A DNA stretch of 62,675 bases from an uncultured Mediterraneibacter sp. (GTDB lineage: Bacteria > Bacillota > Clostridia > Lachnospirales > Lachnospiraceae). Where the stretch lies: contig NZ_CALWFZ010000011.1 of assembly GCF_944377805.1 (NCBI RefSeq), forward strand, positions 1-62,675, read 5' to 3'. The position numbers and the translations under genes are program-made. The notes under the pieces are model-generated. The model was given only the letters and a program-made list of their open reading frames with translations. It was not told the DNA's origin and did no database searches. Shown piece after piece: positions 23,358 to 47,236 of the stretch. Position 1 is the stretch's first letter. The number at the start of each line of letters is the position of its first letter.

Positions 23358-23978
23358 TTATTTGTCTGAAGCTTTATCAGTGTTTTCCTTTTTTGCAAGT
23401 TCATCAACGATTTTTTCAATCATCATCTTTTTGAGATATACATCGAAACTTAAGCTGCAGATAAATGCAAAAAGTTTCAATTCCTCCTGATCTTCACCCT
23501 GTGCCATGTCTGAAAATGCTGCCCTGGACTTTTCGTAAGCTTCCTGTACCGAAGCCTTCATAGGTTCGATACGAGATTTTTCCATTTCGCAGATTTCCTT
23601 GTACAGATCGGAAAGTTTAACTTCGTTGTCCTGGCTAAAATATTTCTCCCGCAGGGGTTTGAGCACTATTTCAATATCTTTGATAGAAAGGATATTTTTG
23701 AAATAGTAGATCAGTATGAGCAGGAGCACATGTTCTTTTGAATACTTTTTCTTTACAGAAGGAGGAAGAAGATTGTTTTTTGTGTAATTGTTGATCATTG
23801 TCTTTGTGAGTATCTTATCATTGCCATATCGTTTTGTGGAGGAAAAATGGTCATCCATAAAGGTTGTGACCTGGTCCATATACAGTTCGATATTCGGAAT
23901 CTCTTCCGGACGGATATAGTCTACATGATCAAGACTCTGAAGTATGCTGTTCAGAATGTCATTCGTATCGATTCTCAT
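23358..23978 (-). CDS. DUF1836 family protein
   Basis: A 206-residue protein with the DUF1836 pattern: a MerR-like helix segment (ILTKTMINNYTKNNLLPPSV, then KKKYSKEHVLLLILIYYFKN) followed by a helical region (SIKDIEIVLKPLREKYFS; AFSDMAQGEDQEELKLFAF) and a charged C-terminus. The family is common in Clostridia and Bacilli and has no fixed role; a DNA-binding role is inferred from the MerR-like part. It is convergent with yerC. Confidence 0.8.
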   Translation of the reverse strand: MRIDTNDILNSILQSLDHVDYIRPEEIPNIELYMDQVTTFMDDHFSSTKRYGNDKILTKTMINNYTKNNLLPPSVKKKYSKEHVLLLILIYYFKNILSIKDIEIVLKPLREKYFSQDNEVKLSDLYKEICEMEKSRIEPMKASVQEAYEKSRAAFSDMAQGEDQEELKLFAFICSLSFDVYLKKMMIEKIVDELAKKENTDKASDK

Positions 23979-33120: not shown

Positions 33121-33235
33121 AACGGTTAAATACCGATCTGCGTGAACATTTACATTTATATTTTTGAGGGATATGAGGGAAAATAAGTGCGGACAGAGGA
33201 AATCCTGCAAATGTAAGCATAAAAGGAGGTTCGTT

Positions 33236-34180
33236 ATGTGTACTTGCATCACCTACTTAAATGGTGACTTTTACTTTGGACGCAATCTTGACCTCGATTG
33301 TTCTTTCGCTGAGGCAGTCACAATAACACCGCGCAATTTTCCGTTGGATTTTCGGAAGGCCGGGAGATTAGAGCACCACTATGCCATGATAGGTATGGCA
33401 TCGAAGAACGACAGTTTTCCCCTTTATGCTGAGGCGGTCAATGAAAAGGGTCTGTGTATGGCGGGATTGAATTTCCCGGGAAATGCGTTTTATCGCAAAC
33501 CGGCGGGACAAAACCTGGGGATTGCCTCATTTGAAGTGATTGCCTGGATTCTCGGGAAGTGTGCGTCTGTGTCGGAGGCAGAAGAGTATCTGAAGCAGAT
33601 GACGATCGTTGACAGTGCGTTTTCTGAGCGGATGGTGTCGGCTCCGCTTCACTGGATGTTGGTAGACCGTGAGAAATGCCTCGTCATTGAGCCGGTTCGG
33701 GAGGGGCTGAAAGTCTATGACAATCCCTTTGGTGTCCTGACCAATAATCCGCCCTTTGAGTATCATAGAATGAATATGAATAACTACATGAACCTGTCGC
33801 CGAAAACTCCGGGGAACCATTTCACAGATAAGCTGGAGCTGAAGCCCTATGGACAGGGGCTGGGCGCTTTCGGGCTTCCGGGGGATTCGTCGCCGGCGTC
33901 GCGCTTCGTGAGGGCGGCATTTCTGAAATGTAATTCTGTGGCCCCGAAAGAGGAAGGGGCAAGTGTCGCACAGTTCTTTCATGTGCTCGATGCTGTAGCG
34001 ATGGTGCGCGGTGCTGTAGTGACAGAGCAGGGGACTTACGATATCACCATGTATTCTTGCTGCGTGAATACCAGGACGGGCGTGTACTATTACAAGACGT
34101 ATGATGATGTGCAGGTGCGGGCTGTGGATATGAATGGGGAAGATCTTGAGGGGGATAAGATGAAAATATATGAATTGTGA
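33236..34180 (+). CDS. bsh: bile salt hydrolase/choloylglycine hydrolase (Ntn hydrolase)
   Basis: A 314-residue Ntn hydrolase. After Met removal, Cys2 (MCTCITYLNG) is the N-terminal nucleophile. Conserved neighbours are FYFGRNLDLD (Arg and Asp of the active site), ITPRNFPLDF, GLCMAGLNFPGNAFY, LHWMLVD, VLTNNPPFEYH, LPGDSSPASRFVRAAFL and AMVRGAV. Overall it is close to the C. perfringens conjugated bile acid hydrolase pattern. It would cleave glycine or taurine from conjugated bile salts in the cytoplasm. ATG 33236 is fixed by the catalytic Cys2 and AAAGGAGG upstream. A penicillin V acylase-like specificity cannot be excluded. Confidence 0.92.
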   Translation: MCTCITYLNGDFYFGRNLDLDCSFAEAVTITPRNFPLDFRKAGRLEHHYAMIGMASKNDSFPLYAEAVNEKGLCMAGLNFPGNAFYRKPAGQNLGIASFEVIAWILGKCASVSEAEEYLKQMTIVDSAFSERMVSAPLHWMLVDREKCLVIEPVREGLKVYDNPFGVLTNNPPFEYHRMNMNNYMNLSPKTPGNHFTDKLELKPYGQGLGAFGLPGDSSPASRFVRAAFLKCNSVAPKEEGASVAQFFHVLDAVAMVRGAVVTEQGTYDITMYSCCVNTRTGVYYYKTYDDVQVRAVDMNGEDLEGDKMKIYEL

Positions 34181-34203: not shown

Positions 34204-34296
34204 GGAAAAAAGCGATTGCGTCATCATGCAATCGCTTTTTCATAAAAACAAAAGTTCAAAAATATTTTTCAACTCACAGATATGAAATATCTGACA
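34204..34296 (-). ncRNA. candidate crRNA-like regulatory RNA (CreR/CreA type) upstream of the type I-C operon
   Basis: On the minus strand, 34295-34266 is a degenerate CRISPR repeat: GTC, stem AGATAT/ATATCT (34292-34287 with 34283-34278) with loop TTC, then GTGAGTTGAAAA. The array repeat has GTC, stem GACCTC/GAGGTC with a 5-nt loop, then GTGAGTTGAAAG. The stem bases have changed but still pair fully, and the 11-nt handle produced by Cas5c cleavage would match 10/11. A pseudo-spacer (from 34265, ATATTTTTGAACTTTTG...) runs into the terminator at 34240-34206. A promoter at 34331-34303 places the start at about 34296, the first base of the element or next to it. The predicted RNA is about 90 nt. 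No experiment supports it yet. Confidence 0.7.
34206..34240. terminator. bidirectional intrinsic terminator between bsh and the cas regulatory region
   Basis: AAAAAGCGATTGC pairs with GCAATCGCTTTTT around TCATCAT. U-runs are present on both strands (plus: TTTTT; minus: TTTTTT). It ends bsh transcription, and on the minus strand it ends the crRNA-like RNA. Confidence 0.88.
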
Positions 34297-34302
34297 AGAC
34301 TA

Positions 34303-34331
34303 AATGTATCATATAAAGTTCAACATTGCAA
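34303..34331 (-). promoter_or_regulatory. promoter of the crRNA-like RNA
   Basis: Minus strand: -35 TTGCAA (34331-34326), 17-bp spacer, extended -10 TGA-TACATT (hexamer 34308-34303). The CRISPR array promoter also uses TTGCAA with a 17-bp spacer. The distance from the -35 start to the repeat start is 36 nt here and 35 nt at the array. Confidence 0.65.
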
Positions 34332-34387
34332 TAAAAATCATTTTATATTTTTGAATTTTATATTTTTAAAATTACTATTTATGTTGC

Positions 34388-34416
34388 TTGCGATTCACAG
34401 GAGTATATGTTATAGT
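34388..34416 (+). promoter_or_regulatory. predicted cas operon promoter
   Basis: -35 TTGCGA (34388-34393), 17-bp spacer, extended -10 TGT-TATAGT (hexamer 34411-34416). The predicted start near 34423 gives a leader of about 185 nt before cas3 with an early 11-bp hairpin (34436-34465). Confidence 0.55.
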
Positions 34417-34430
34417 TGATTTGTGGATAA

Positions 34431-34508
34431 AGAAAAAGGTTAGGTGTTTGGCCCCACCTAACCTTAAGAAGTCATTTCAAACCCTGTTAGTTCCGAAATA
34501 ACCACCAG
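34431..34508 (-). ncRNA. candidate small RNA antisense to the cas3 leader
   Basis: On the minus strand a consensus promoter is followed by about 43 nt that can fold (GUUAUUUC with GAAAUGAC, one G-U pair). An ideal intrinsic terminator then ends the RNA: AAGGTTAGGTG (minus, 34465-34455) pairs with CACCTAACCTT (34446-34436), followed by TTTCTTT. The resulting RNA of about 78 nt lies wholly inside, and antisense to, the predicted cas leader. No open reading frame with a ribosome site was seen. It resembles no family I can name; a toxin RNA of CreT type or an antisense regulator are options. Confidence 0.6.
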
Positions 34509-34606: not shown

Positions 34607-37066
34607 GTGAGATATATAGGGAGTGATAAAAAGAGAGATCCTGTCTTTTTACAGGACGATCCATATCTTGCGCACGTCGTGCCCGAAACCAGATCAACCC
34701 AAAATGTAAGCAGTCATTTGTCTGGAACAATGGATCTGGCAGTGGAAAACTGTCCCCTGAAGGTTTTGGAGAACCTTGCAAGAATTACAGCGCTGCTGCA
34801 TGATGCGGGGAAATTGTGCCCGGAGTTTTATGATTACATGAACGATATTGTGGAATATGGCGAGAATGCCCGAAAGCGGAAGATCGATCATACAACTGCC
34901 GGAGGAAGGATTCTCGAAAATATTGCCGGGATCAATACTTTTTCCGAATTTGTCGGCACAGCTGTCTATTCTCATCATGGATTGCAGGACTGTATTAATG
35001 TGGAGTCTGGACAATCTCTTTCAGAAAATCGGCGAAAGAACGCAATCAGCAGTGAAATAGTTTCGGACAGATATTTTAAGATGATCAATAAGGAAATATT
35101 TGTCGAATATCTGGTAAAAGCCCACAGGGATCTTCAGAAAATCATCAGTCAGATTAAAGGATTTATGAGTGAAACTGCGGATGATAGCTGCGGATGTCTG
35201 GAGTTTTATCTTGGAATGTTTGAGAGACTGCTTCTGTCTGTTTTGGTCGACAGTGACTGGACGGATACTGCCTGCTTTTCCCAGGGACAGCCTCTTCCAG
35301 AGAAAATCTCGGGGGAGAGAATCCAGGCGGTATGGGATGAGGCGGTTTCCCATTTTGAGACATTTATGAAGGAGCTGCCTGATTCTGGAAAACCGAGCCG
35401 ATTGAATCGATATCGTGATGAAATATCGCAACGATGCTATAATGCGTCAAAAGAAAAAAGAAATTTATACAGACTGACAGTACCTACCGGGGCGGGAAAG
35501 ACGTTCAGCAGTCTTCGCTTCGCCCTTCATCACGTAAAGAAATTTCATAAGAGGCATATTATATATGTATCGCCTTTCAACTCAATCTTAGAGCAGAACT
35601 CTGAAGATATCAGGAAGGCGGTGGGAAATGAAAGTCTTGTGCTGGAACATCACTGCAACATTTTCTATGAAGATGAAGAGAAGGACAAAGAATACAGAAA
35701 ACTGACAGAACGGTGGCAGTCGCCAATCATTACTACAACGGCGGTTCAAATGCTTAATACCTTGTTTTCCTCACAAAAGAGCAGTATCCGCAGGATGTAT
35801 AATCTGTGCAACAGTGTAATTATATTTGATGAGGTACAGGCGTTCCCTGTCAGAGGAACGGAACTGTTCAATCTGGCAGTAAATTTCCTTACTGCTTTTT
35901 GCAATACGACGGTGATCCTGTGCTCTGCGACGCAGCCTTCTCTGGCGCGCCTCGGGGAAAACAATCTTTATGGCTGTGTTGAGATGGCGGGTGCTCTAAA
36001 GGAGTATGCTGAGGCATTCCGGCGGGTTCGGATTGAAGACAGGACGGATCTTAAAGCAGGAGGAATGAGCCCGGATGATCTGAGTGAATTTACATATGGA
36101 GCTTTCCGGGAATATGGCTCAGTTCTGGTAGTTGTGAATACTAAAAAGTGTGCAAAACAGGTCTATGAAGCGCTGGAGAGGACATGCGAAAATGCGTGCC
36201 GGCTGTATCATCTGAGCACGGGGATGTGTCCGGAAAACCGTAGAGAAGAGCTAAACGCCGTGAAACAGGATCTAGGTAATGGAAGACCGGTTATCTGTGT
36301 CAGCACTCAGTTGATCGAGGCAGGGGTAGATCTGTCGTTTGGCTGTGTGATTCGTTCTCTGGCAGGACTGGACAGTATTATTCAGGCAGCAGGACGCTGC
36401 AACAGGCACAAAGAGAAAGAAGAAGGAAAAGTTTATATTATCAGGATGGATCCGGACACAGAGAGGCTGGATAGATTGGATGATATCAGGAGAGCGCAGA
36501 AGGCTTCGGAAAAGCTGCTCTACTATTTCAGGAAAAATCCGGAAGAGTTTGGCGGCTCGCTGGACTCAGAGGATTCTGTGGCGGCTTATTACAGGGAGTA
36601 TTTTCGTGACGAAGGCGCTGAGCCTACAAAGTACCAAAGCAGACGCTACCCGGAAACAACACTGGAGGATCTGCTGGGAAAAAATGTGTCCGGTAACGCA
36701 CAATATCGGAGGAAGCATAATGGAAATATAAAAAAATCTTATCTGAACCAGGCGTTTCGCACAGCGGGAGAAGAGTATGAGGTTATTCCTGAAGATGCAA
36801 AAGTGACGGTCATAATCCCATATGACCATGTTGCTCAAAAGGCAATTGATACGCTGGAAGATCAGTTTTCCTCCTTTGCCGAGCAGAAAAGAGCAGTAAG
36901 AATTTTACAGCGGTATGCTGTGGGGATTTCTGAAAACCTTCTGAAAAAACTGGGACGGGCAGTTCATGAGATCAGGAATACAGGTGTGCTTGTGCTGAGT
37001 ATGGATTATTACGATAAGAAAGTAGGGGTGCTGGAGGAACCGAGAAGCAGATTCTTAAATTTTTAG
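34607..37066 (+). CDS. cas3: Cas3, type I-C helicase-nuclease
   Basis: An 819-residue HD nuclease-helicase. HD motifs: SSHLSG, ITALLHDAGKLCPEF, TAVYSHHGL. Helicase motifs: TVPTGAGKTFSSLRF (Walker A), VIIFDEVQAFPV (Walker B), LCSATQPSL, VSTQLIEAGVDLSFG, IIQAAGRCNRH. It degrades DNA marked by Cascade. The start is odd: the only usable codon before the conserved PYLAHV segment is GTG 34607, with no clear Shine-Dalgarno, and an in-frame TAA lies at 34580. That gives an unusual 20-residue lead. Expression may be kept low, or the native start may have been lost. Confidence 0.92.
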   Translation: MRYIGSDKKRDPVFLQDDPYLAHVVPETRSTQNVSSHLSGTMDLAVENCPLKVLENLARITALLHDAGKLCPEFYDYMNDIVEYGENARKRKIDHTTAGGRILENIAGINTFSEFVGTAVYSHHGLQDCINVESGQSLSENRRKNAISSEIVSDRYFKMINKEIFVEYLVKAHRDLQKIISQIKGFMSETADDSCGCLEFYLGMFERLLLSVLVDSDWTDTACFSQGQPLPEKISGERIQAVWDEAVSHFETFMKELPDSGKPSRLNRYRDEISQRCYNASKEKRNLYRLTVPTGAGKTFSSLRFALHHVKKFHKRHIIYVSPFNSILEQNSEDIRKAVGNESLVLEHHCNIFYEDEEKDKEYRKLTERWQSPIITTTAVQMLNTLFSSQKSSIRRMYNLCNSVIIFDEVQAFPVRGTELFNLAVNFLTAFCNTTVILCSATQPSLARLGENNLYGCVEMAGALKEYAEAFRRVRIEDRTDLKAGGMSPDDLSEFTYGAFREYGSVLVVVNTKKCAKQVYEALERTCENACRLYHLSTGMCPENRREELNAVKQDLGNGRPVICVSTQLIEAGVDLSFGCVIRSLAGLDSIIQAAGRCNRHKEKEEGKVYIIRMDPDTERLDRLDDIRRAQKASEKLLYYFRKNPEEFGGSLDSEDSVAAYYREYFRDEGAEPTKYQSRRYPETTLEDLLGKNVSGNAQYRRKHNGNIKKSYLNQAFRTAGEEYEVIPEDAKVTVIIPYDHVAQKAIDTLEDQFSSFAEQKRAVRILQRYAVGISENLLKKLGRAVHEIRNTGVLVLSMDYYDKKVGVLEEPRSRFLNF

Positions 37067-37078
37067 GGAGGTGAGAAT

Positions 37079-37816
37079 ATGGAAAGGTACAGGAATACAA
37101 TAGAATTTGAGGTGTATGGAAATTATGCGCTCTTTTCAGACCCAGTTACCCGGGTGGGCGGTGAGAAATCAACTTATCATATCCCTACTTACGAGGCATT
37201 AAAGGGGATTACAGAGAGCGTCTATTGGAAGCCGACGCTGAGGTGGACCGTGGATGCCGTGCGTGTGATGAATCCAATCCAGACAGAGACAAAAGGCATA
37301 CGTCCGATCGGATATAATGGAGGAAATGAGCTGGCGTATTACACCTATCTGAAAGATGTACGTTATCAGGTGAGGGCTCACTTTGAGTTTAACCTGAATC
37401 ATCCGGAACTTGAAGATGACAGAAATGAGCACAAGCACCATAATATTGCGAAACGAATGGTGCAGCGGGGCGGCAGGAGAGATGTTTTCCTTGGAACAAG
37501 AGAGTGCCAGGCATTTGTAGAACCCTGCGTATTTGGTGAAGGTGAAAGTTTCTATGATAAGATGCCCGGCGAGACGGCATATGGATTTATGTATCATGGA
37601 ATTACATATGCTGATGAGGCGGTATTGCCGGAAGAGCAGAACAAAATGACAGTGAATTTTTGGAGACCTGTGATGAAACAGGGCGGAATTATCGAATTTT
37701 TGCGCCCGGAAGAATGTCCGCATAAACGTTTTATAAAAAAGATGGAACGAAGGATATTCGGAAAAGGAAATTTTACTGGACTTCAGGAATTTGATGAACA
37801 GGAGGTGGCAGATTGA
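37079..37816 (+). CDS. cas5c: Cas5c (Cas5d), pre-crRNA endonuclease of type I-C
   Basis: A 245-residue RAMP protein. In type I-C Cas5 replaces Cas6: it cuts the repeat at the base of its stem and stays on the 5' handle. Visible family features are the N-terminal FEVYGNYALFSDPVTRVGGE, YHIPTYEALKGITESVYWKP, and the C-terminal FLGTRECQAFVEPCVFGEGE. GGGAGGTG lies upstream. It overlaps cas8c by 4 nt. It would also be able to process the crRNA-like RNA at 34204-34296, since that RNA keeps the stem base and handle. Confidence 0.93.
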   Translation: MERYRNTIEFEVYGNYALFSDPVTRVGGEKSTYHIPTYEALKGITESVYWKPTLRWTVDAVRVMNPIQTETKGIRPIGYNGGNELAYYTYLKDVRYQVRAHFEFNLNHPELEDDRNEHKHHNIAKRMVQRGGRRDVFLGTRECQAFVEPCVFGEGESFYDKMPGETAYGFMYHGITYADEAVLPEEQNKMTVNFWRPVMKQGGIIEFLRPEECPHKRFIKKMERRIFGKGNFTGLQEFDEQEVAD

Positions 37817-39825
37817 GCTGGGAAGAGGAATTGATTAACCTGTATGAAAAAAATAGTTCTCAGGCAGGGATCATACGGTATAAGCTGTTTGTGAAAAATG
37901 GAAAAGAGGAGAAGATCCCATATGTGCTGATTCCGCCTTTTCATACGACTGTCACAGCTCAGATCCAGGTAACTGTCAGTGCAGACGGTGAATTTCAGGG
38001 AGCGGAAAAAGTTGCAAATGAAGATAAACTGACGATAATACCTGTAACGGAGAAATCAGCCAGCAGGACTGCCGGTAAAGCACCGCACCCTCTTTGTGAT
38101 AACCTGAAATATCTGGCTGGAGATTATACAAAATTTGTAAAAGATGAAAAAGGTAATGCCGGCGAGTATCATGATATGTATATGGAAGAGTTGGAAAAAT
38201 GGCATCTTTCAGAGCTGACTCATGAAAAAGCAGACGCAGTTTACCGTTACCTGAAGAAAGAGACACTTCTGCAGGATTTGATTGACGAAAAAGTATTAGT
38301 ATTAGATGAGGATGGATATCTGGATGAAACTGTTAAGATTGAAAATGTTTCTCAGGCAGCAGCTTTTGTCCGATTTATTGTAAGAAGCAGCAAGGGTATG
38401 GATTTGGAATCAGATGAGTGTTGGAAAGACCGGTCATTGCAGGAACGCTACATACAATATTGTCAATATAGCCAAAAGCATAAAGAACTAGATTATCTGA
38501 CAGGGACAATGCAGCCGGCATCATATCTTCATTCAAAGAAAATAAGGAATGAAGGTGACGGAGCAAAGCTGATTTCCTCAAATGACGAGACAAACTATAT
38601 ATTCAGAGGACGTTTTGTCTCAAAAGAACAGGCTTTTGCGATAGGCAATGAAACATCTCAGAAAATGCATAATGCCTTGAAATGGATCATCCGAAAACAG
38701 GGGAGGAGTTTTGAAACTCTGACGATGGTCACCTGGGAATCCGGTATGAAAAGTATGCCTTTCTGGGATGTCGATACTGAGACGATTAGTTCTGTGGCGA
38801 TGCCGGATCCTGCGGAGGAGCCGACAGGTGAATTTTCACAACTGTTTCAAGATGATGAAGAGAACCGCTGGATGGAAGAGCCAAAGCAGCAGATGACAGA
38901 CCAGAACCCCTATACAGCGCGTCAGCTATATAGTGCGCTGGAGGGGTACAGGCGGCAGGTGGACAACACTTCGCGGATGATACTGCTGGCATTTGACGCT
39001 GCGACAACCGGACGGCTGGCGCTTGCTGAGTTTAAGGATCTTGCAACGGCGAGGTATCTGGAAAACATAAAGAGATGGCATGAGAATTGTGGCTGGATCC
39101 ACCGAAAATATAAAGACGGACGGCAGATTGAATATTTCGGCGTTCCTGGAGTCAGGGATATCGCTGATATTCTGTATGGAACAGAATCAAGAGGTAAACT
39201 TACGATCAGTGATAAAAACGGGAAAAAATTATACGCGGAACTTGCCCGCAGGCTGCTTCCCAGCATCTGGGATGGAAGAAATATTCCCTATGATCTGGTA
39301 GTGACGGCTGTGAATAAGGCATCGATGCCCCAGTCGTATAAAGAAAGATATAATTGGGAGCGCGTATTGGCGCTTGCCTGTTCGTTTGTAAAGAAAAACC
39401 GATACGAGAGAGATAAAAAGGAGGAGTGGAACGTGGCGTTAAATAATGAGTGTGACATTAGAGATTATCTGTATGGAAGACTGCTTGCTGTGGCAGACAG
39501 GGTGGAATATCGCACATTTGATATGGAAAGGGACTCGGGGAGAGTGACAAATGCAAAGCGGTATATGAGCACCTTTGCCCAGAGGCCTTTTGAGACATGG
39601 AAGATTATTGAAGAAAACCTTCAGCCCTATTTCAATAAACTTTTGGCAGCAGAGAGGCGGTATTATGAAAATCTGATCGACAGTATCTGCGAAAAGTTCG
39701 ATGTAGAAGAGTTTCGGAAGAATACCAGGTTGGATGGCCTGTATCTTTTAGGGCTCCATAGTCAGTCCTACGATCTGAAATACAATAAGAAGACTACAAA
39801 CAATGGAGGAAAAGAGAATGAGTGA
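37813..39825 (+). CDS. cas8c: Cas8c (Csd1), large Cascade subunit of type I-C
   Basis: A 670-residue large subunit that recognises the PAM. It starts at TTG 37813, overlapping the cas5c stop as TTGA, with GGAGG eight bases upstream. The N-terminus (ELINLYEKNSSQ) and the central NYIFRGRFVSKEQAFAIGNE, with ALKWIIRKQG and TMVTWESGMK, fit the Csd1 family. The C-terminal 130 residues are also translated separately as Cas11c (see 39433-39825). It overlaps cas7c by 8 nt. Confidence 0.93.
   Translation: MSWEEELINLYEKNSSQAGIIRYKLFVKNGKEEKIPYVLIPPFHTTVTAQIQVTVSADGEFQGAEKVANEDKLTIIPVTEKSASRTAGKAPHPLCDNLKYLAGDYTKFVKDEKGNAGEYHDMYMEELEKWHLSELTHEKADAVYRYLKKETLLQDLIDEKVLVLDEDGYLDETVKIENVSQAAAFVRFIVRSSKGMDLESDECWKDRSLQERYIQYCQYSQKHKELDYLTGTMQPASYLHSKKIRNEGDGAKLISSNDETNYIFRGRFVSKEQAFAIGNETSQKMHNALKWIIRKQGRSFETLTMVTWESGMKSMPFWDVDTETISSVAMPDPAEEPTGEFSQLFQDDEENRWMEEPKQQMTDQNPYTARQLYSALEGYRRQVDNTSRMILLAFDAATTGRLALAEFKDLATARYLENIKRWHENCGWIHRKYKDGRQIEYFGVPGVRDIADILYGTESRGKLTISDKNGKKLYAELARRLLPSIWDGRNIPYDLVVTAVNKASMPQSYKERYNWERVLALACSFVKKNRYERDKKEEWNVALNNECDIRDYLYGRLLAVADRVEYRTFDMERDSGRVTNAKRYMSTFAQRPFETWKIIEENLQPYFNKLLAAERRYYENLIDSICEKFDVEEFRKNTRLDGLYLLGLHSQSYDLKYNKKTTNNGGKENE
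39433..39825 (+). CDS. cas11c: Cas11c, small subunit from an internal start in cas8c
   Basis: Type I-C systems make a small subunit from an internal ribosome site in cas8c. Here AAAAGGAGG (39416-39424) lies 8 nt before an in-frame GTG (39433, codon 541 of cas8c), giving 130 residues beginning (f)Met-ALNNECDIRDYLYGRLLA. The segment is helical and charged, as in Cas11 proteins. Location, length and the strong Shine-Dalgarno agree with known type I-C Cas11c. The call is by analogy and needs protein evidence. Confidence 0.75.
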   Translation: MALNNECDIRDYLYGRLLAVADRVEYRTFDMERDSGRVTNAKRYMSTFAQRPFETWKIIEENLQPYFNKLLAAERRYYENLIDSICEKFDVEEFRKNTRLDGLYLLGLHSQSYDLKYNKKTTNNGGKENE

Positions 39826-40672
39826 ATTAAAAGGAAAGATTGATTTTACATTATTTGTGAGCGTAACGAATGCAAATCCAAACGGCGATCCGCTTAACGG
39901 GAATCGTCCCAGGATCAACCTGGATGGCTATGGGGAAATTTCGGATGTGTGCATTAAGCGTAAGATTAGAAATCGTTTCCAGGATTTAGGCCAGAGGGTG
40001 TTTGTGCAGCCCGATGATCGTGCAGATGACGGTTACAGCAGTTTGAAAGAAAGAGCAGAGGGATGCGAGGAACTGAAGAAAGAAATCAGTAAAAAGAAAA
40101 AGGCGGACAGAGACCTGTGTGCCCGGATTGCATGCCGGGAATGGATTGATGTAAGGAGTTTTGGACAAGTGTTTGCATTTAAAGGCGATGATGTATCGTT
40201 TGGCGTACGCGGGCCGGTATCTGTCCATCAGGCAGTCAGCCTTTCACCGGTAGATATCATCAGTATGCAGATCACGAAAAGTGTAAATAGTGAAGCGGGA
40301 AAGGAAAGTAAAGCGTCTGACACGATGGGGACGAAGCATCGGATCGGCTTTGCCGTATATAAAGTAATGGGAAGTGTTAATGTACAGCTTGCGGAAAAGA
40401 CGGGCTTTACCCAGGAAGACGCAGAAGTCCTGAAAGAATCTTTGAAAACGTTGTTTGAAAATGATGCTTCTTCAGCAAGACCGGATGGCAGTATGGAAGT
40501 GTGCAGAATGTACTGGTGGCAGCATAACGAGAAGACTCCGGCTGTCTCAAGCGGAAAGATACAGAGAGGTTTTCACATGAATGATGTGAGCAGACCTTCA
40601 AAATTTGAAGATTACAATATTAGCTGGGAATTGGACGGGTGTGTCGAACCGGAGGTATTTGATTTTGTATGA
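39818..40672 (+). CDS. cas7c: Cas7c (Csd2), backbone subunit of type I-C Cascade
   Basis: A 284-residue RAMP protein that coats the crRNA spacer. The N-terminus, IDFTLFVSVTNANPNGDPLN with GNRPRINLDGYGEISDVCIK, is the Csd2 signature, and GVRGPVSVHQAVSLSPVDI and the motif DTMGTKHRIGFAVYKV follow. ATG 39818 is preferred because GGAGG lies just upstream. It overlaps cas4 by 8 nt. Confidence 0.94.
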   Translation: MSELKGKIDFTLFVSVTNANPNGDPLNGNRPRINLDGYGEISDVCIKRKIRNRFQDLGQRVFVQPDDRADDGYSSLKERAEGCEELKKEISKKKKADRDLCARIACREWIDVRSFGQVFAFKGDDVSFGVRGPVSVHQAVSLSPVDIISMQITKSVNSEAGKESKASDTMGTKHRIGFAVYKVMGSVNVQLAEKTGFTQEDAEVLKESLKTLFENDASSARPDGSMEVCRMYWWQHNEKTPAVSSGKIQRGFHMNDVSRPSKFEDYNISWELDGCVEPEVFDFV

Positions 40673-41330
40673 TGAGGATGATTTCCTGCAGCTTTCGGGA
40701 ATTCAGCATTTTGCTTTCTGTCGGAGACAGTGGGCTCTTGCCTATATCGAGCTTCAGTGGCAGGAAAATGTAAGAACTGTAGAAGGACATCTGCTTCACG
40801 AAAATGCACACGATTCCTCGTTGAAAGAAAAGCGCGGTGATCTGATTATCGTCAGGGGGATGCCGGTACATTCCAGAGAGATCGGAATCAGTGGCGAGTG
40901 CGATATTGTCGAGTTTCACACGTCTGAGGATGGTGTCCCGATCTCGGGCAGAGAAGGGAAGTATCGCGCTGTGCCTGTAGAGTATAAGCGCGGAAAGCCT
41001 AAGGCAAATGATGTGGATGCACTCCAGGTGGCGGCACAGGCTTTATGCCTGGAGGAGATGCTGTGCTGCGATATACCCTATGGATATATTTACTATGGGG
41101 AGAGCAGACGTCGGGAGAAAATCGAGTTTACCGACGAACTTCGGAAGAAAGTGAAGGATATGTTTGCTGAGATGCATAAATTTTATGATCAGCGATATAC
41201 ACCAAAAGTGAAAAGAACAAAAAGCTGCAATGCATGTTCTTTGAAAGATATTTGTATTCCGGCATTAAACAAAGAGGTTTCTGTAAAAAACTATATTGAT
41301 CGTAGAATGAAAGAAGGAGAGCCAGATTGA
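40665..41330 (+). CDS. cas4: Cas4 nuclease, spacer-acquisition factor
   Basis: A 221-residue RecB-like Fe-S nuclease. Start TTG 40665 (GGAGG 9 nt upstream) gives YDEDDFLQLSGIQHFAFCRR. The cluster cysteines are the one in FCRRQW and the C-terminal SCNACSLKDICIP. Nuclease motifs are GECDIVEFH and VPVEYKRGKPK (D, E-x-K). It trims and orients prespacers by PAM before Cas1-Cas2 integration. It overlaps cas1 as TTGA. Confidence 0.93.
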   Translation: MYDEDDFLQLSGIQHFAFCRRQWALAYIELQWQENVRTVEGHLLHENAHDSSLKEKRGDLIIVRGMPVHSREIGISGECDIVEFHTSEDGVPISGREGKYRAVPVEYKRGKPKANDVDALQVAAQALCLEEMLCCDIPYGYIYYGESRRREKIEFTDELRKKVKDMFAEMHKFYDQRYTPKVKRTKSCNACSLKDICIPALNKEVSVKNYIDRRMKEGEPD

Positions 41331-42358
41331 AACGCTTATTAAATACTCTCTATGTGACAGGTACAAACCGATATCTTTCCCTGGATGGAGAAAATGTTGT
41401 TGTATTGGAGGAAGGCAGAGAAATTGGACGGGTTCCCCTTCATAATCTTCAGAGTATTGTGACGTTTGGTTATACAGGAGCCAGTCCTGCGCTAATGGGC
41501 GCCTGCGCGCAAAAGAATATTGACCTGACGTTTATGTCCGGTCATGGCAGATTCCTTGCAAGAGTAACGGGTGAAGTAAAAGGAAATGTTACTTTGAGAA
41601 AACAGCAGTATCATGTCAGTGAGGATAAAGAAAAATCCATCTGTATCGCAAGAAATTTTGTATTTGGAAAAGTGTATAATGCACGGTGGATTCTGGAAAG
41701 AGCGGCAAGGGATTATCCACTGCGGATTGATGCTGAAAAACTAAAAGAAAAATCCGGTTTCCTGTACAACAGTCTCCAGGAAATCAGGATATGCCAGGAT
41801 GCATCTAAGCTCCTTGGGCTTGAAGGAGAGGCGGCGTCGGTTTATTTCTCGGTATTTGATCAGCTTATTTTACAGCAAAAAGAGGAGTTCTATTTTAGAA
41901 AACGGAATAAAAGACCGCCTCTCGATAATATGAATGCCCTGCTTTCTTTTGCTTATAGCCTGCTTGCCGGAATGTGCGGTGCAGCTTTGGAAGCGGTCGG
42001 ATTAGATCCTTATGTGGGGTTCTATCATACAGACAGGCCGGGGAGAATTTCTTTGGCGTTGGACATTATGGAGGAACTTCGAGGCGTTATGGCAGATCGC
42101 TTTGTTCTTACTTTAATCAATAAACGTATTATAAAGCCAGGAGATTTCATTCAAAAGGAAAATGGTGCAGTGATTCTTGACGACAACGGGCGCAGAACCT
42201 TCTTAAGCGCATGGCAGGGCCGAAAACAGGAAGTAATAAAACATCCATTTTTAAATGAGAAGATTGAATGGGGAATGGTTCCGCATGTCCAGGCAATGCT
42301 GCTGGCGAGATACCTCAGAGGAGATTTGGATGAATATCCGCCGTTTTTATGGAAGTAG
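41327..42358 (+). CDS. cas1: Cas1c integrase
   Basis: A 343-residue Cas1. Motifs: NTLYVTGTNRYLSLDGENVV at the N-terminus, the metal-site region GMCGAALEAVGLDPYVGFYH and DRPGRISLALDIMEELRGVM. It inserts new spacers at the leader end together with Cas2. Start TTG 41327 overlaps the cas4 stop, with AAGGAGA upstream. It is the third UUG start in this operon. Confidence 0.95.
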   Translation: MKRLLNTLYVTGTNRYLSLDGENVVVLEEGREIGRVPLHNLQSIVTFGYTGASPALMGACAQKNIDLTFMSGHGRFLARVTGEVKGNVTLRKQQYHVSEDKEKSICIARNFVFGKVYNARWILERAARDYPLRIDAEKLKEKSGFLYNSLQEIRICQDASKLLGLEGEAASVYFSVFDQLILQQKEEFYFRKRNKRPPLDNMNALLSFAYSLLAGMCGAALEAVGLDPYVGFYHTDRPGRISLALDIMEELRGVMADRFVLTLINKRIIKPGDFIQKENGAVILDDNGRRTFLSAWQGRKQEVIKHPFLNEKIEWGMVPHVQAMLLARYLRGDLDEYPPFLWK

Positions 42359-42366
42359 GTGATAAT

Positions 42367-42657
42367 ATGTTTGTGTTGATTACATATGATGTTAATACGA
42401 AGACGGCTGCTGGACGCAAACGCCTCCGAAAGGTGGCAAAGCAGTGTGTTAATTATGGACAACGTGTCCAGAATTCGGTATTTGAATGTCAGTTTGATTC
42501 TACGAAATATCGTCAAGTCAGAGCAATTTTAGAGGATATAATTGATAAAGAGACTGACAGTTTGAGGTTTTATAATTTGGGTGATAAGTATAAAAATAAA
42601 GTGGAGCATCTCGGAATAAAGCCCGGTTTTGATGTGACTGATCCCCTGATTCTCTAG
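42367..42657 (+). CDS. cas2: Cas2
   Basis: A 96-residue protein: MFVLITYDVNTKTAAGRKRL (ferredoxin-like fold with the conserved Asp), CVNYGQRVQNSVFECQF, and SLRFYNLGDKYKNKVEHLG. ATG 42367 has AGGTGATA upstream. Its stop codon overlaps the first arm of the leader inverted repeat (42656-42664). Confidence 0.95.
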   Translation: MFVLITYDVNTKTAAGRKRLRKVAKQCVNYGQRVQNSVFECQFDSTKYRQVRAILEDIIDKETDSLRFYNLGDKYKNKVEHLGIKPGFDVTDPLIL

Positions 42658-42824
42658 TGCGAATGCTAAGAGAACATAAATTGTGCGTGGATTCGCACTG
42701 GAATTATTGGAAAAATAGGAAATGAAAGGTAAATAGAAAACAAAAAATAAGTTGAAAGTATTATTTAAGGTTGAAATAGCACAAATTATTTGCAAATTTT
42801 CAGGTTTTATTATATAAATTTGCT
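42656..42824 (+). promoter_or_regulatory. CRISPR leader with inverted repeat and array promoter
   Basis: A 9-bp perfect inverted repeat, AGTGCGAAT (42656-42664) and ATTCGCACT (42691-42699), flanks the cas2-proximal leader, a pattern also seen behind other type I-C cas2 genes. The array promoter is -35 TTGCAA (42790-42795), 17 bp, -10 TATAAA (42813-42818), placing the start at about 42825, the first base of repeat 1. Confidence 0.75.
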
Positions 42825-45800
42825 GTCGACCTCCTTGTGAGGTCGTGAGTTGAAAGACTATCTTTTCTGCCAGATGGTTTGATGTCGCACTGTCGACCTC
42901 CTTGTGAGGTCGTGAGTTGAAAGATGGTTCATGCGGGATATGGGAAGATTTTAAGAGTCGACCTCCTTGTGAGGTCGTGAGTTGAAAGTGGTATGGCGAA
43001 AAGGAAATTAAATAATCAGACAGTCGACCTCCTTGTGAGGTCGTGAGTTGAAAGATTAAAGAAAAGGAGAAAAGAAAAATGGCAAGAGAGTCGACCTCCT
43101 TGTGAGGTCGTGAGTTGAAAGATCTACAACGTCATCTAGTTCATAATTATACCTGTCGACCTCCTTGTGAGGTCGTGAGTTGAAAGATTAGTAGATAAAA
43201 AATATAAGCAAGCATATGAGCGTCGACCTCCTTGTGAGGTCGTGAGTTGAAAGATTAAAAGTGTAGAATATATCAATAACGAAACGTCGTCGACCTCCTT
43301 GTGAGGTCGTGAGTTGAAAGTAGCCCGATCAACCCAGATATCAAAATTCGGAAAAGTCGACCTCCTTGTGAGGTCGTGAGTTGAAAGGCACATATTGACG
43401 TATGTTTCTTCATGTGTCATAGTCGACCTCCTTGTGAGGTCGTGAGTTGAAAGGTACATCGCAAGCGGATTTCGCCACGCCTGACTGTGTCGACCTCCTT
43501 GTGAGGTCGTGAGTTGAAAGATCACTGTTGCGTGTGTCTGTTTCGATCTCTGACGTCGACCTCCTTGTGAGGTCGTGAGTTGAAAGATTAAATTCAATGC
43601 GGGCAGAATATGAACTGGAGAAGTCGACCTCCTTGTGAGGTCGTGAGTTGAAAGGTCGTGTTGCCTAGCAGTTGATATTTTTGTTTCAGTCGACCTCCTT
43701 GTGAGGTCGTGAGTTGAAAGTCAAACGAGTCTACAATGACAGTTCTGACATTGGTGTCGACCTCCTTGTGAGGTCGTGAGTTGAAAGATATTCCATCTGT
43801 GAGTCGCGTTCCTAATATACTGTCGACCTCCTTGTGAGGTCGTGAGTTGAAAGGTCTGATTACAACGTGCAAGAAAGCTGGGAAGTTCGTCGACCTCCTT
43901 GTGAGGTCGTGAGTTGAAAGGCAAGTCACAGATACCCAACTCCGCGAACATCTGGTCGACCTCCTTGTGAGGTCGTGAGTTGAAAGGTCGCTGTGATCTC
44001 GCCACCCGCAGGCAGATCTGGTCGACCTCCTTGTGAGGTCGTGAGTTGAAAGGATGAAGCGAAGAAAGAAAAAATGATTCACTGGGTCGACCTCCTTGTG
44101 AGGTCGTGAGTTGAAAGATTGACACCCTGTATTTTCCGTTTCTTGTATAGGTCGACCTCCTTGTGAGGTCGTGAGTTGAAAGACCGTTCTCCAGAACGCA
44201 TACATCTGTTGCGCCGAGTCGACCTCCTTGTGAGGTCGTGAGTTGAAAGGTGGACGGAAAGCCACGGCAGAAGCCGCCGAAGAGGTCGACCTCCTTGTGA
44301 GGTCGTGAGTTGAAAGATCTACAAGTCTTATTTTCATTCTCTTTTCTTCCGTCGACCTCCTTGTGAGGTCGTGAGTTGAAAGATCCCTAACGCTTGATAG
44401 TACGGGTTCAGCATAGGTCGACCTCCTTGTGAGGTCGTGAGTTGAAAGGTCTGAGTTAAATGGTAAATTCAGAACCGAGTATAGTCGACCTCCTTGTGAG
44501 GTCGTGAGTTGAAAGGTACGCCGGGAAAGTGCAGGGCGAAACCTCATAGTCGACCTCCTTGTGAGGTCGTGAGTTGAAAGGTCCTCTGCAAGTCCGATGG
44601 CTTCGGACAGCATCGTCGACCTCCTTGTGAGGTCGTGAGTTGAAAGTTGAAAAATCAGGCAAGACACAGTTTGCCGAAGAGTCGACCTCCTTGTGAGGTC
44701 GTGAGTTGAAAGACTCCATCCTTTGTAAGTGGAACTATAAGATATCGTCGACCTCCTTGTGAGGTCGTGAGTTGAAAGTTCAAAATGAAAAAAAGTGTTT
44801 TGCATGCGGTAGTCGACCTCCTTGTGAGGTCGTGAGTTGAAAGTGCATGTGTCCGGTATCTGGAGAACATGGAACGAAGGTCGACCTCCTTGTGAGGTCG
44901 TGAGTTGAAAGACCGTCTCTCTCCCAGATGAACCAATTAAAAACCGTCGACCTCCTTGTGAGGTCGTGAGTTGAAAGGCAATTCCCTTCTTGAGGACACA
45001 GTAAGCAACATCGTCGACCTCCTTGTGAGGTCGTGAGTTGAAAGGACAAGGAAAATGTGATTGATGAATTGGTAGAATTGTCGACCTCCTTGTGAGGTCG
45101 TGAGTTGAAAGGTATTTTTACAGCATCGAATACAGTGTGACGTTGAGTCGACCTCCTTGTGAGGTCGTGAGTTGAAAGAAACAGGATGAATGGAATAACT
45201 TCATCGATTCGACGGTCGACCTCCTTGTGAGGTCGTGAGTTGAAAGTGAAAAAATCGGACATATTGAACCATTCGACAGGTCGACCTCCTTGTGAGGTCG
45301 TGAGTTGAAAGATCGTTTGGAGTTGTAAAACACTTCAGAATTATGTCGACCTCCTTGTGAGGTCGTGAGTTGAAAGACCGCTACTGGTGATGTTGTGGCA
45401 AACCTGTATGTCGACCTCCTTGTGAGGTCGTGAGTTGAAAGGATTTTCCATGAATCCGATGCGGAATAATTCTCGTCGACCTCCTTGTGAGGTCGTGAGT
45501 TGAAAGCAGAGATGGGCGAAGAAGCGGATGACGCGGGGAAACAGTCGACCTCCTTGTGAGGTCGTGAGTTGAAAGATAATTCATTTGGAAAATACAATTA
45601 TAGAAATGCGTCGACCTCCTTGTGAGGTCGTGAGTTGAAAGTCATTTGTGATTCCGTATATATTTGATTCTGGTAGTCGACCTCCTTGTGAGGTCGTGAG
45701 TTGAAAGATTCTGTACCGGCTCTGCCCTCGCTTTCATCTTCGTCGACCTCCTTGTGAGGTCGTGAGTTGAAAGGTCTGAGTTAAATGGCAAATACAAGGT

Positions 45801-47236
45801 CGAATATGTGTCGACCTCCTTGTGAGGTCGTGAGTTGAAAGATGCCTACTGGCTCTAGTATTATTATACATGTGCGTCGACCTCCTTGTGAGGTCGTGAG
45901 TTGAAAGTTCTATTGACATACCACTCAATGAGTGGTATTATGTCGACCTCCTTGTGAGGTCGTGAGTTGAAAGACGAAGAAAGAGCGGGTCGAAATGCTA
46001 CATTGCATCGTCGACCTCCTTGTGAGGTCGTGAGTTGAAAGATTCGAAGAAGCGTGTGTTGAAGGAGAACAGGCGGTCGACCTCCTTGTGAGGTCGTGAG
46101 TTGAAAGTTGCTATGCACACCTGATCTTCCGGTAGTGCAATCGTCGACCTCCTTGTGAGGTCGTGAGTTGAAAGATGTACGGCAGTACAAAGCGGAAAAG
46201 AAAGAAGAGGTCGACCTCCTTGTGAGGTCGTGAGTTGAAAGGTCCTGCAGGCTGTAATGTAATCGTTCAGATTGTCGTCGACCTCCTTGTGAGGTCGTGA
46301 GTTGAAAGTTTCTCAAATATTTGGAATTCGATTAAGAATCTTTGTCGACCTCCTTGTGAGGTCGTGAGTTGAAAGTATTCGAAGAAGCGTGTGTTGAAGG
46401 AGAACAGGCGGTCGACCTCCTTGTGAGGTCGTGAGTTGAAAGCCACAGATCGTCACCGTCACGGAACTTGAATCCCGTCGACCTCCTTGTGAGGTCGTGA
46501 GTTGAAAGTTTGATATGAGATGAAGAAAGGAGAAAATAGTTAGTCGACCTCCTTGTGAGGTCGTGAGTTGAAAGGACGGGGGAGTGCAGCTCTCCACGGA
46601 TCAGCTCCTGTCGACCTCCTTGTGAGGTCGTGAGTTGAAAGTTCTTCCAGTTCGTCAGTTTCTGCCGATGTGTTCGTCGACCTCCTTGTGAGGTCGTGAG
46701 TTGAAAGATTCTCTTAAGTTCACGCATAAAGTCTTCCTTTTGTCGACCTCCTTGTGAGGTCGTGAGTTGAAAGATTCAGTATATTATTGAGTTGTTGTGG
46801 TTTACATTGTCGACCTCCTTGTGAGGTCGTGAGTTGAAAGAATGCGGCGCTGATGGCGAATCCAGCAGGTGTTATGTCGACCTCCTTGTGAGGTCGTGAG
46901 TTGAAAGGAGAAAAGAATGAAGCAGCTGACAGCCAAAATTGGTCGACCTCCTTGTGAGGTCGTGAGTTGAAAGACTCGCAAATCCTTATTTTGGTGGAGT
47001 GTCAATCGTCGACCTCCTTGTGAGGTCGTGAGTTGAAAGCCGGTAATCCTGACCGGCCGCCGGGCGGATAATGTCGACCTCCTTGTGAGGTCGTGAGTTG
47101 AAAGATCCTTTCCCTGTGCGAGCTGATCATGGGAAGCCGTCGACCTCCTTGTGAGGTCGTGAGTTGAAAGGTGACCAGGCCCTCTGCCGGAGATGTCACA
47201 TTCAGTCGACCTCCTTGTGAGGTCGTGAGTTGAAGG
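42825..47236 (+). CRISPR. type I-C CRISPR array, 67 repeats and 66 spacers
   Basis: The 32-bp repeat has GTC, a stem GACCTC-CTTGT-GAGGTC, then GTGAGTTGAAAG. I located 67 copies, starting at 42825, 42892, 42957 ... 47139, 47205. Spacers are 33-37 bp. All the copies I read are identical except the last (47205-47236), which ends GAAGG instead of GAAAG, so the array runs from leader to trailer on the plus strand. Spacers 49 and 54 are near-duplicates, spacers 25 and 45 are variants of one coding target, and spacer 47 holds a 21-bp palindrome behind TTGACA. Long minus-strand frames through the array (STHDLTRRST-type) are artefacts of the repeat. Confidence 0.99.

Follow-up and report, generated by a model that had tools for sequence, protein, structure and literature searches.

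Cas-regulating RNAs (CreRs) were reportedly described by Liu et al. 2023, and Shmakov et al. 2023 are said to have found crRNA-like standalone repeats and mini-arrays whose guides partly match cas promoters, with a type I-F case tested; these mini-arrays reportedly have two repeats, whereas the element discussed here has one. CreRs are reported for subtypes I-B, I-E and V-A and act by partial promoter complementarity (PMC13131331), and they are placed in Type I and V-A, with I-C left unnamed (PMC12737573). A type I-C CreR was not found in the literature covered, which is a weak negative, the original CreR and mini-array reports lying outside its reach. Further systems that come close are (i) CreA of CreTA/CrePA, likewise a guide RNA of partial complementarity that turns Cascade into a repressor, but with a toxin promoter as its target (PMC12737573), (ii) tracr-L of type II-A, which has an 11-nt PAM-adjacent match at the cas promoter and binds without apparent cleavage, but relies on Cas9 and a tracrRNA-derived guide (PMC8616872), and (iii) the phage repeat mimic RacrIC1, a solitary I-C repeat RNA that inhibits type I-C immunity and for which a promoter-matching guide is not described in the part of the source at hand (PMC10651486). 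In type I-C itself, pre-crRNA is cut by Cas5 (Cas5d/Cas5c), leaving an 11-nt 5′ handle (PMC5965380), and in the I-C Cascade structure this handle is clamped by Cas5c and Cas7.7 (PMC7684278).

The window (the whole stretch of DNA that was analysed, 62,675 nt, from an uncultured Mediterraneibacter sp.) carries a cas operon that is assigned to type I-C by Cas5c, Cas8c, Cas7 and Cas1c models over cut-off; no cas6 was found among the seven cas genes scanned in the operon. The features relevant to what follows are:

34205 to 34242 (approximately), minus strand: intrinsic terminator, AAGCGATTGC-ATGATGAC-GCAATCGCTT plus a T-run, with a stem of 10-14 bp and an 8-nt loop
34232 to 34265, minus strand: pseudo-spacer (guide), beginning ATATTTTTGAACTTTTG, its 3′ part overlapping the terminator stem
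34266 to 34295, minus strand: standalone repeat mimic, made of GTC (34295-34293), the hairpin AGATAT-TTC-ATATCT and GTGAGTTGAAAA (34277-34266)
34303 to 34331, minus strand: small-RNA promoter by consensus match, with -35 TTGCAA (34331-34326), a 17-bp spacer ending in TGA and extended -10 TACATT (34308-34303)
34342 to 34378, plus strand: target in the cas promoter region, with PAM TTT (34342-34344) and the protospacer from 34345
34357 to 34393, plus strand: tandem duplicate of the target, a weaker match (12 of the first 14 positions), with PAM TTT, starting at 34360 (15 bp on) and ending exactly on the cas -35 box
34388 to 34416, plus strand: predicted cas operon promoter, TTGCGA-17-TATAGT, extended -10
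34607 to 42657, plus strand: type I-C cas operon, cas3-cas5c-cas8c-cas7-cas4-cas1-cas2
42825 to 47170, plus strand: CRISPR array with 66 exact handles, repeat GTCGACCTCCTTGTGAGGTCGTGAGTTGAAAG and promoter TTGCAA at 42790

Read on the minus strand from 34331 to 34204, the sequence between a bile salt hydrolase gene and cas3 begins with a promoter, continues with a repeat mimic and its pseudo-spacer, and closes with an intrinsic terminator. The initial annotation had singled out this stretch by repeat likeness and position alone, and the parts that it named were all found in their places. Specifically, GTC, a 6-bp stem, a loop and the handle mirror the array repeat, with GTC and the handle kept, 11/12 of the last bases identical, and the stem letters changed in such a way that pairing is preserved; TTGCAA, the 17-bp spacer and the extended -10 put the predicted start of the RNA at about 34296, some one base from the repeat; a strong terminator closes the RNA after one pseudo-spacer and occupies the place expected for a second repeat; and the array promoter has the same -35 at a nearly equal distance (35 nt before the first array repeat vs 36 nt before that of the element). 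The choloylglycine (bile salt) hydrolase gene itself (33164-34180) is convergent with the small RNA.

The 11-nt handle that Cas5c would be expected to leave on the mimic is TGAGTTGAAAA. Its exact form (GTGAGTTGAAA) has 67 copies in the 2.28-Mb assembly (92.6% complete), of which 66 belong to the array and one to the element, and the reversed control pattern has 0; the handle of the element is therefore not a chance occurrence. The RNA from 34302 to 34205 has a folding energy of -28.4 kcal/mol (z = -4.06, equalled by 0/200 shuffles), much of it contributed by the terminator; when the 27-nt repeat part is taken by itself, a fraction of only 0.02 of 60 shuffles fold as well. A scan against Rfam returned two weak matches and no family over threshold. 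A single repeat behind a promoter could also be a phage-type decoy (Racr, a solitary repeat unit) that inhibits Cascade assembly, and a type I-C Racr has been described (PMC10651486). The element is, however, located at a cas locus, with a bile salt hydrolase gene as its neighbour, rather than on a phage or plasmid, its guide matches the cas promoter, and there were 0 exact copies of handle plus guide in viral_contigs, which makes such a decoy scarcely credible here.

It is the match between the guide and the cas promoter region, absent from the initial annotation, that forms the strongest feature of the locus. Guide positions 1-11 and 13-15 match the plus strand from 34345 (ATATTTTTGAATTTTAT) beside the TTT PAM. 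Position 12 is mismatched, which should cost little, since Cascade, as described for type I-E, flips out one guide base in six (6, 12, 18 and so on; PMC5965380). A YTY PAM followed by the 13 paired positions has a single occurrence in the assembly, namely at 34345 upstream of cas3, and by base composition the guide/PAM match is expected at about 4e-5 within the 385-bp local stretch. The guide has a high AT content. At 23692 in the window lies another match to its first 11 bases, and two of the 37 foreign upstream regions give it scores of 10 and 11.5. At 34345-34374, the target consists of an imperfect tandem duplication of 15 bp (ATATTTTTGAATTTT / ATATTTTTAAAATTA), with a TTT PAM at both copies. 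Further downstream, the predicted 5′ leader of the cas mRNA (about 190 nt in length, up to the cas3 start) contains a strong hairpin at 34439-34465 (GGTTAGGTG...CACCTAACC), for which no Rfam family exceeded the threshold.

For comparison, type I-C loci were gathered by their Cas5c (80 named loci, 80/87 places from a family search, 80/115 places from a phylum search, and the window), giving 241 loci; Cas5c was present in 83/397 genomes of the family search and in 110/398 of the phylum search. Removal of 12 loci without Cas5c or a cas3 start left 229, and removal of 13 near-duplicates left 216 non-redundant loci; short pieces (L001-L031 and L272-L288) were left out of the counts. A good hairpin before the handle was tried as a search criterion, lost members and picked up arrays, and a test of handle plus guide match was therefore adopted. 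Among 549 handle sites (at least 10/11) that were not recognised as array copies, 84 lie upstream of cas3 and 465 elsewhere in the loci. A guide match score of at least 10 to the locus' own cas3 upstream region was reached by 36/84 upstream sites, in 36 loci, as against 3/465 sites elsewhere and 23/2745 shuffled guides; the sites elsewhere serve as background only, and the three that match have the PAMs TTC, GAA and CGA. Random positions reached score 10 in 10/1016 cases without array loci, and in 12.9% with arrays, a figure that the arrays inflate. With the two loci L252 and L205, added by a pair search that used the PAM, the tally comes to 38/216 I-C loci (the window among them) in which a standalone repeat mimic, located upstream of cas3, carries a guide matching the upstream region of the locus itself, a fraction that is no prevalence estimate because the sample is non-random (80 loci are the best matches to the window Cas5c) and contains related loci. 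Of 53 upstream sites with an exact handle, 23 had no guide match; 12 of these are array copies of L212, and the others are found in L166, L249, L252, L141, L214, L098, L207, L097, L089, L152 and L084, with L252 later paired with a target inside masked flank and L141 having a second handle that does match.

The PAM played no part in the search that yielded the 36, yet a YTY PAM is found in 36/36 (TTC 16, TTT 12, CTT 5, CTC 3); for Xanthomonas oryzae, TTC is given as the PAM of its type I-C system (PMC8406640). In 33 elements, guide positions 1-5 and 7-11 match in 31-33/33 and positions 13-15 in 32/33, position 6 in 13/33 and position 12 in 9/33; position 16 still matches in 27/33 and position 17 in 22/33, and positions beyond 17 in 3-16/33. 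Mismatches thus cluster at positions 6 and 12, and pairing fades after 15-17; the score took in guide positions 1-17, with 6 and 12 lightly weighted and later positions outside it. When the frame was shifted, all 13 positions matched in 25/49 sites with 6 and 12 free, and in 3-4/49 in each of the other five frames. A test blind to the handle, carried out on 206 loci (eight with upstream arrays and regions of less than 150 nt being left out), yielded 206 YTY-flanked repeated-seed pairs, of which 28 were preceded by a handle of at least 10/11, one by 9/11 and the rest by at most 5/11, whereas among 1210 pairs with other PAMs the handle match never exceeded 8/11.

The handles of the elements, and even their PAMs, follow the handle type of the array. 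Elements with the variant handle GTGAGTAGAAA (L181, L182, L185-L188, L263) have a CTY PAM (CTT or CTC) in 7/7 cases and the other 29 a TTY PAM in 28/29 (the exception, L136, has CTC), so that the PAM goes with the system type. In the 26 loci with a readable array, the handle of the element equals that of its own array in 19; six differ by 1-2 bases, and the remaining difference is an offset of the array-end call. The base directly before the handle shows an excess of T (26/38 elements), above that of arrays. All 38 guides differ from one another, and for 34/38 the own target beats all 37 foreign upstream regions; the four exceptions are L252 and L205, whose targets lie in masked flank, and L186 and L106, which tie with a foreign region. 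Foreign guides in general reached score 10 in 25/1406 cross tests. In the pair L078/L093 (Cas5c DNA 84% alike, ungapped), the element and target regions are alignable; among guide positions 1-17, 8 non-idle ones have different letters in the two loci, and the target of each locus agrees with its own guide; a 3-nt alignment gap in the guide stretch makes the single substitutions untraceable one by one. A functionless fragment of an old array would be consistent with the degenerate repeat stems and patchy occurrence, but handle, guide-target pairing, PAM and pairing frame are kept while stem and guide letters change, and we regard such a relic as highly improbable.

Outside the guide, the elements in relatives are less uniform. 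A terminator-like hairpin occurs within 120 nt in 25/38 elements (vs 48/380 in the control), starting 8-41 nt after the handle, and a promoter score of at least 6.5 is reached by 34% of elements (vs 3.7% of the control). The repeat-mimic hairpin is better than 95% of shuffles in only 13/38 elements, the stems often being short. In L209, where the element is at -294 from cas3 and the target at -761, farther upstream than the element, the terminator hairpin (TATCGCACCCTTCTGGGTGCGATA) resembles the stem of the locus' own array repeat, which gives the impression of a remodelled second repeat. L203 is without a readable array, and there the likeness, to a common I-C repeat, is confined to the start of the terminator stem.

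With respect to the predicted promoters, in 17/22 loci with a plus-strand target the -35 of the best one within 80 nt begins 14-28 nt inside the protospacer. Overlap of the protospacer with the best predicted promoter as such is not far above random (19/33 elements vs 264/660 random places), and this overall statistic, being weak, is given no weight. The window is an outlier in this geometry, as the -35 starts 43 nt into the frame of the best target and 28 nt into that of the second copy; a gap of 9 bp separates the best target from the predicted cas -35, and this target sits between two divergent promoters. For this reason, repression is inferred more weakly for the window than for its relatives. 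The position of the best target could suggest that Cascade leaves cas expression unchanged or even raises it, e.g. via the small-RNA promoter at 34303-34331 or by displacing a regulator. This is unlikely, considering that the predicted -35 lies inside the protospacer in those 17/22 loci and that known CreRs repress (PMC13131331).

A small gene of 88-91 aa is located between target and cas3 in L036 (about -374 to -107), L037 (-423 to -153) and L118 (-369 to -93), and a similar one just upstream of cas3 in L032; those of L036 and L037 match Pfam DUF3892, and for L118 and L032 the similarity was judged by eye. Some I-C operons may begin with this gene, so far overlooked, and the element may co-regulate it. 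Such small ORFs, together with the alike RNA architecture, could also speak for an antitoxin-type guide (CreA of CreTA/CrePA) that represses a hidden toxin RNA or gene and not cas. In the window, however, the sole YTY plus 13-position match in the assembly is the one upstream of cas3, no plus-strand ORF of at least 70 aa is listed between 34416 and 34607, and no adjacent toxin promoter is seen as the target of the guide, all of which render an antitoxin very unlikely. Of the label ‘CreR/CreA type’ in the initial annotation, the CreR part is thus retained, the target being the cas promoter, and the CreA/CreT part is dropped.

The annotation had further proposed to look for conservation upstream of cas3 in relatives; the arrangement recurs in 38/216 I-C loci, among them Hominifimenecus microfluidus (L043/L133), and is patchy among the closest ones. 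More specifically, of the 11 loci with a Cas5c at least 80% identical (L032-L042), the element is found in three (L036, L037 and L042, the last from Coprococcus catus), while four of the 11 are only partly assessable. No element was seen in the upstream region scanned of L034, L038, L040 and L041, nor in the 836 and 394 nt available upstream in L032 and L039; L033 offers 229 nt upstream only, and L035 is without a cas3 start. Within the genus of the window, Cas5c is present in 16/58 genomes (that of the window included); of 13 same-genus regions fetched, eight have a cas3 start and one of these eight has the element (L294: handle 10/11, TTC PAM), L289 among the eight appearing to be the L032 contig again.

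What the sequences themselves show is the element and its recurrence in relatives, the match of its guide to a PAM-flanked target, and the pairing pattern of Cascade; together these point to a type I-C CreR-like RNA that would be cut by Cas5c and would guide Cascade to repress its own cas operon, a reading to which we give a probability of roughly 0.87. The proposal of a type I-C regulatory RNA made in the initial annotation thereby gains support from the PAM-adjacent guide match, the recurrence, the pairing pattern, and a handle and PAM that follow the array type. Since the RNA imitates a CRISPR guide and matches the operon promoter, the defence complex probably lowers its own production. Once transcribed, the repeat mimic would be cut by Cas5c, the resulting guide would bear the usual 11-nt 5′ handle, and Cas7 and Cas8c would assemble on it into Cascade; the first 15 guide bases (position 12 idle) would pair with the site next to the TTT PAM, a short way before the cas -35 box, and Cascade would occupy this site without Cas3 cutting the chromosome, as pairing stops after about 15 bases, so that cas3-cas2 transcription would be lowered. 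Array crRNAs or anti-CRISPRs that draw Cascade away would bring relief, amounting to negative feedback on the Cas level.

As in CreRs (PMC12737573, PMC13131331, PMC12948488), a crRNA-like RNA shows limited complementarity to the cas promoter, the effector would be reused as repressor, and feedback on Cas levels is expected; in contrast to them, the element belongs to type I-C and not to I-B, I-E or V-A, Cas5c would replace Cas6, and there is only one repeat mimic, with a terminator after it. A standalone repeat-like sequence is present at a cas locus outside the array, its own promoter and defined end are predicted from consensus and folding, limited complementarity to the cas promoter (positions 1-11 and 13-15) lies beside a TTT PAM, and the pairing (every sixth base idle, PAM-proximal only) is compatible with Cascade. 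On these sequence grounds, the element is best classed with CreR-like autoregulation of cas, as a putative variant belonging to type I-C. We lean, by a narrow preference, towards a broader view in which a widespread class of autoregulatory guides is particular to type I-C, whose minimal Cascade is without Cas6, each consisting of one Cas5c-type mimic, a short guide and a terminator replacing the second repeat; such guides would use a 15-base code with positions 6 and 12 idle, guide, handle and PAM would evolve in concert with promoter and Cas proteins, gain and loss would be frequent, and L209 (perhaps L203) would be a mini-array turning into such a gene.

If true, type I-C would set its own level by guide-based feedback like other subtypes, via a Cas6-less route and a simpler gene. 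Such a regulation would (i) provide a sequence rule for finding these RNAs (handle, YTY PAM and positions 1-5, 7-11 and 13-15), (ii) supply 38 natural guide-target pairs for measuring the pairing that lets Cascade bind without cutting and (iii) predict how type I-C hosts respond to anti-CRISPRs and to loss of the array.
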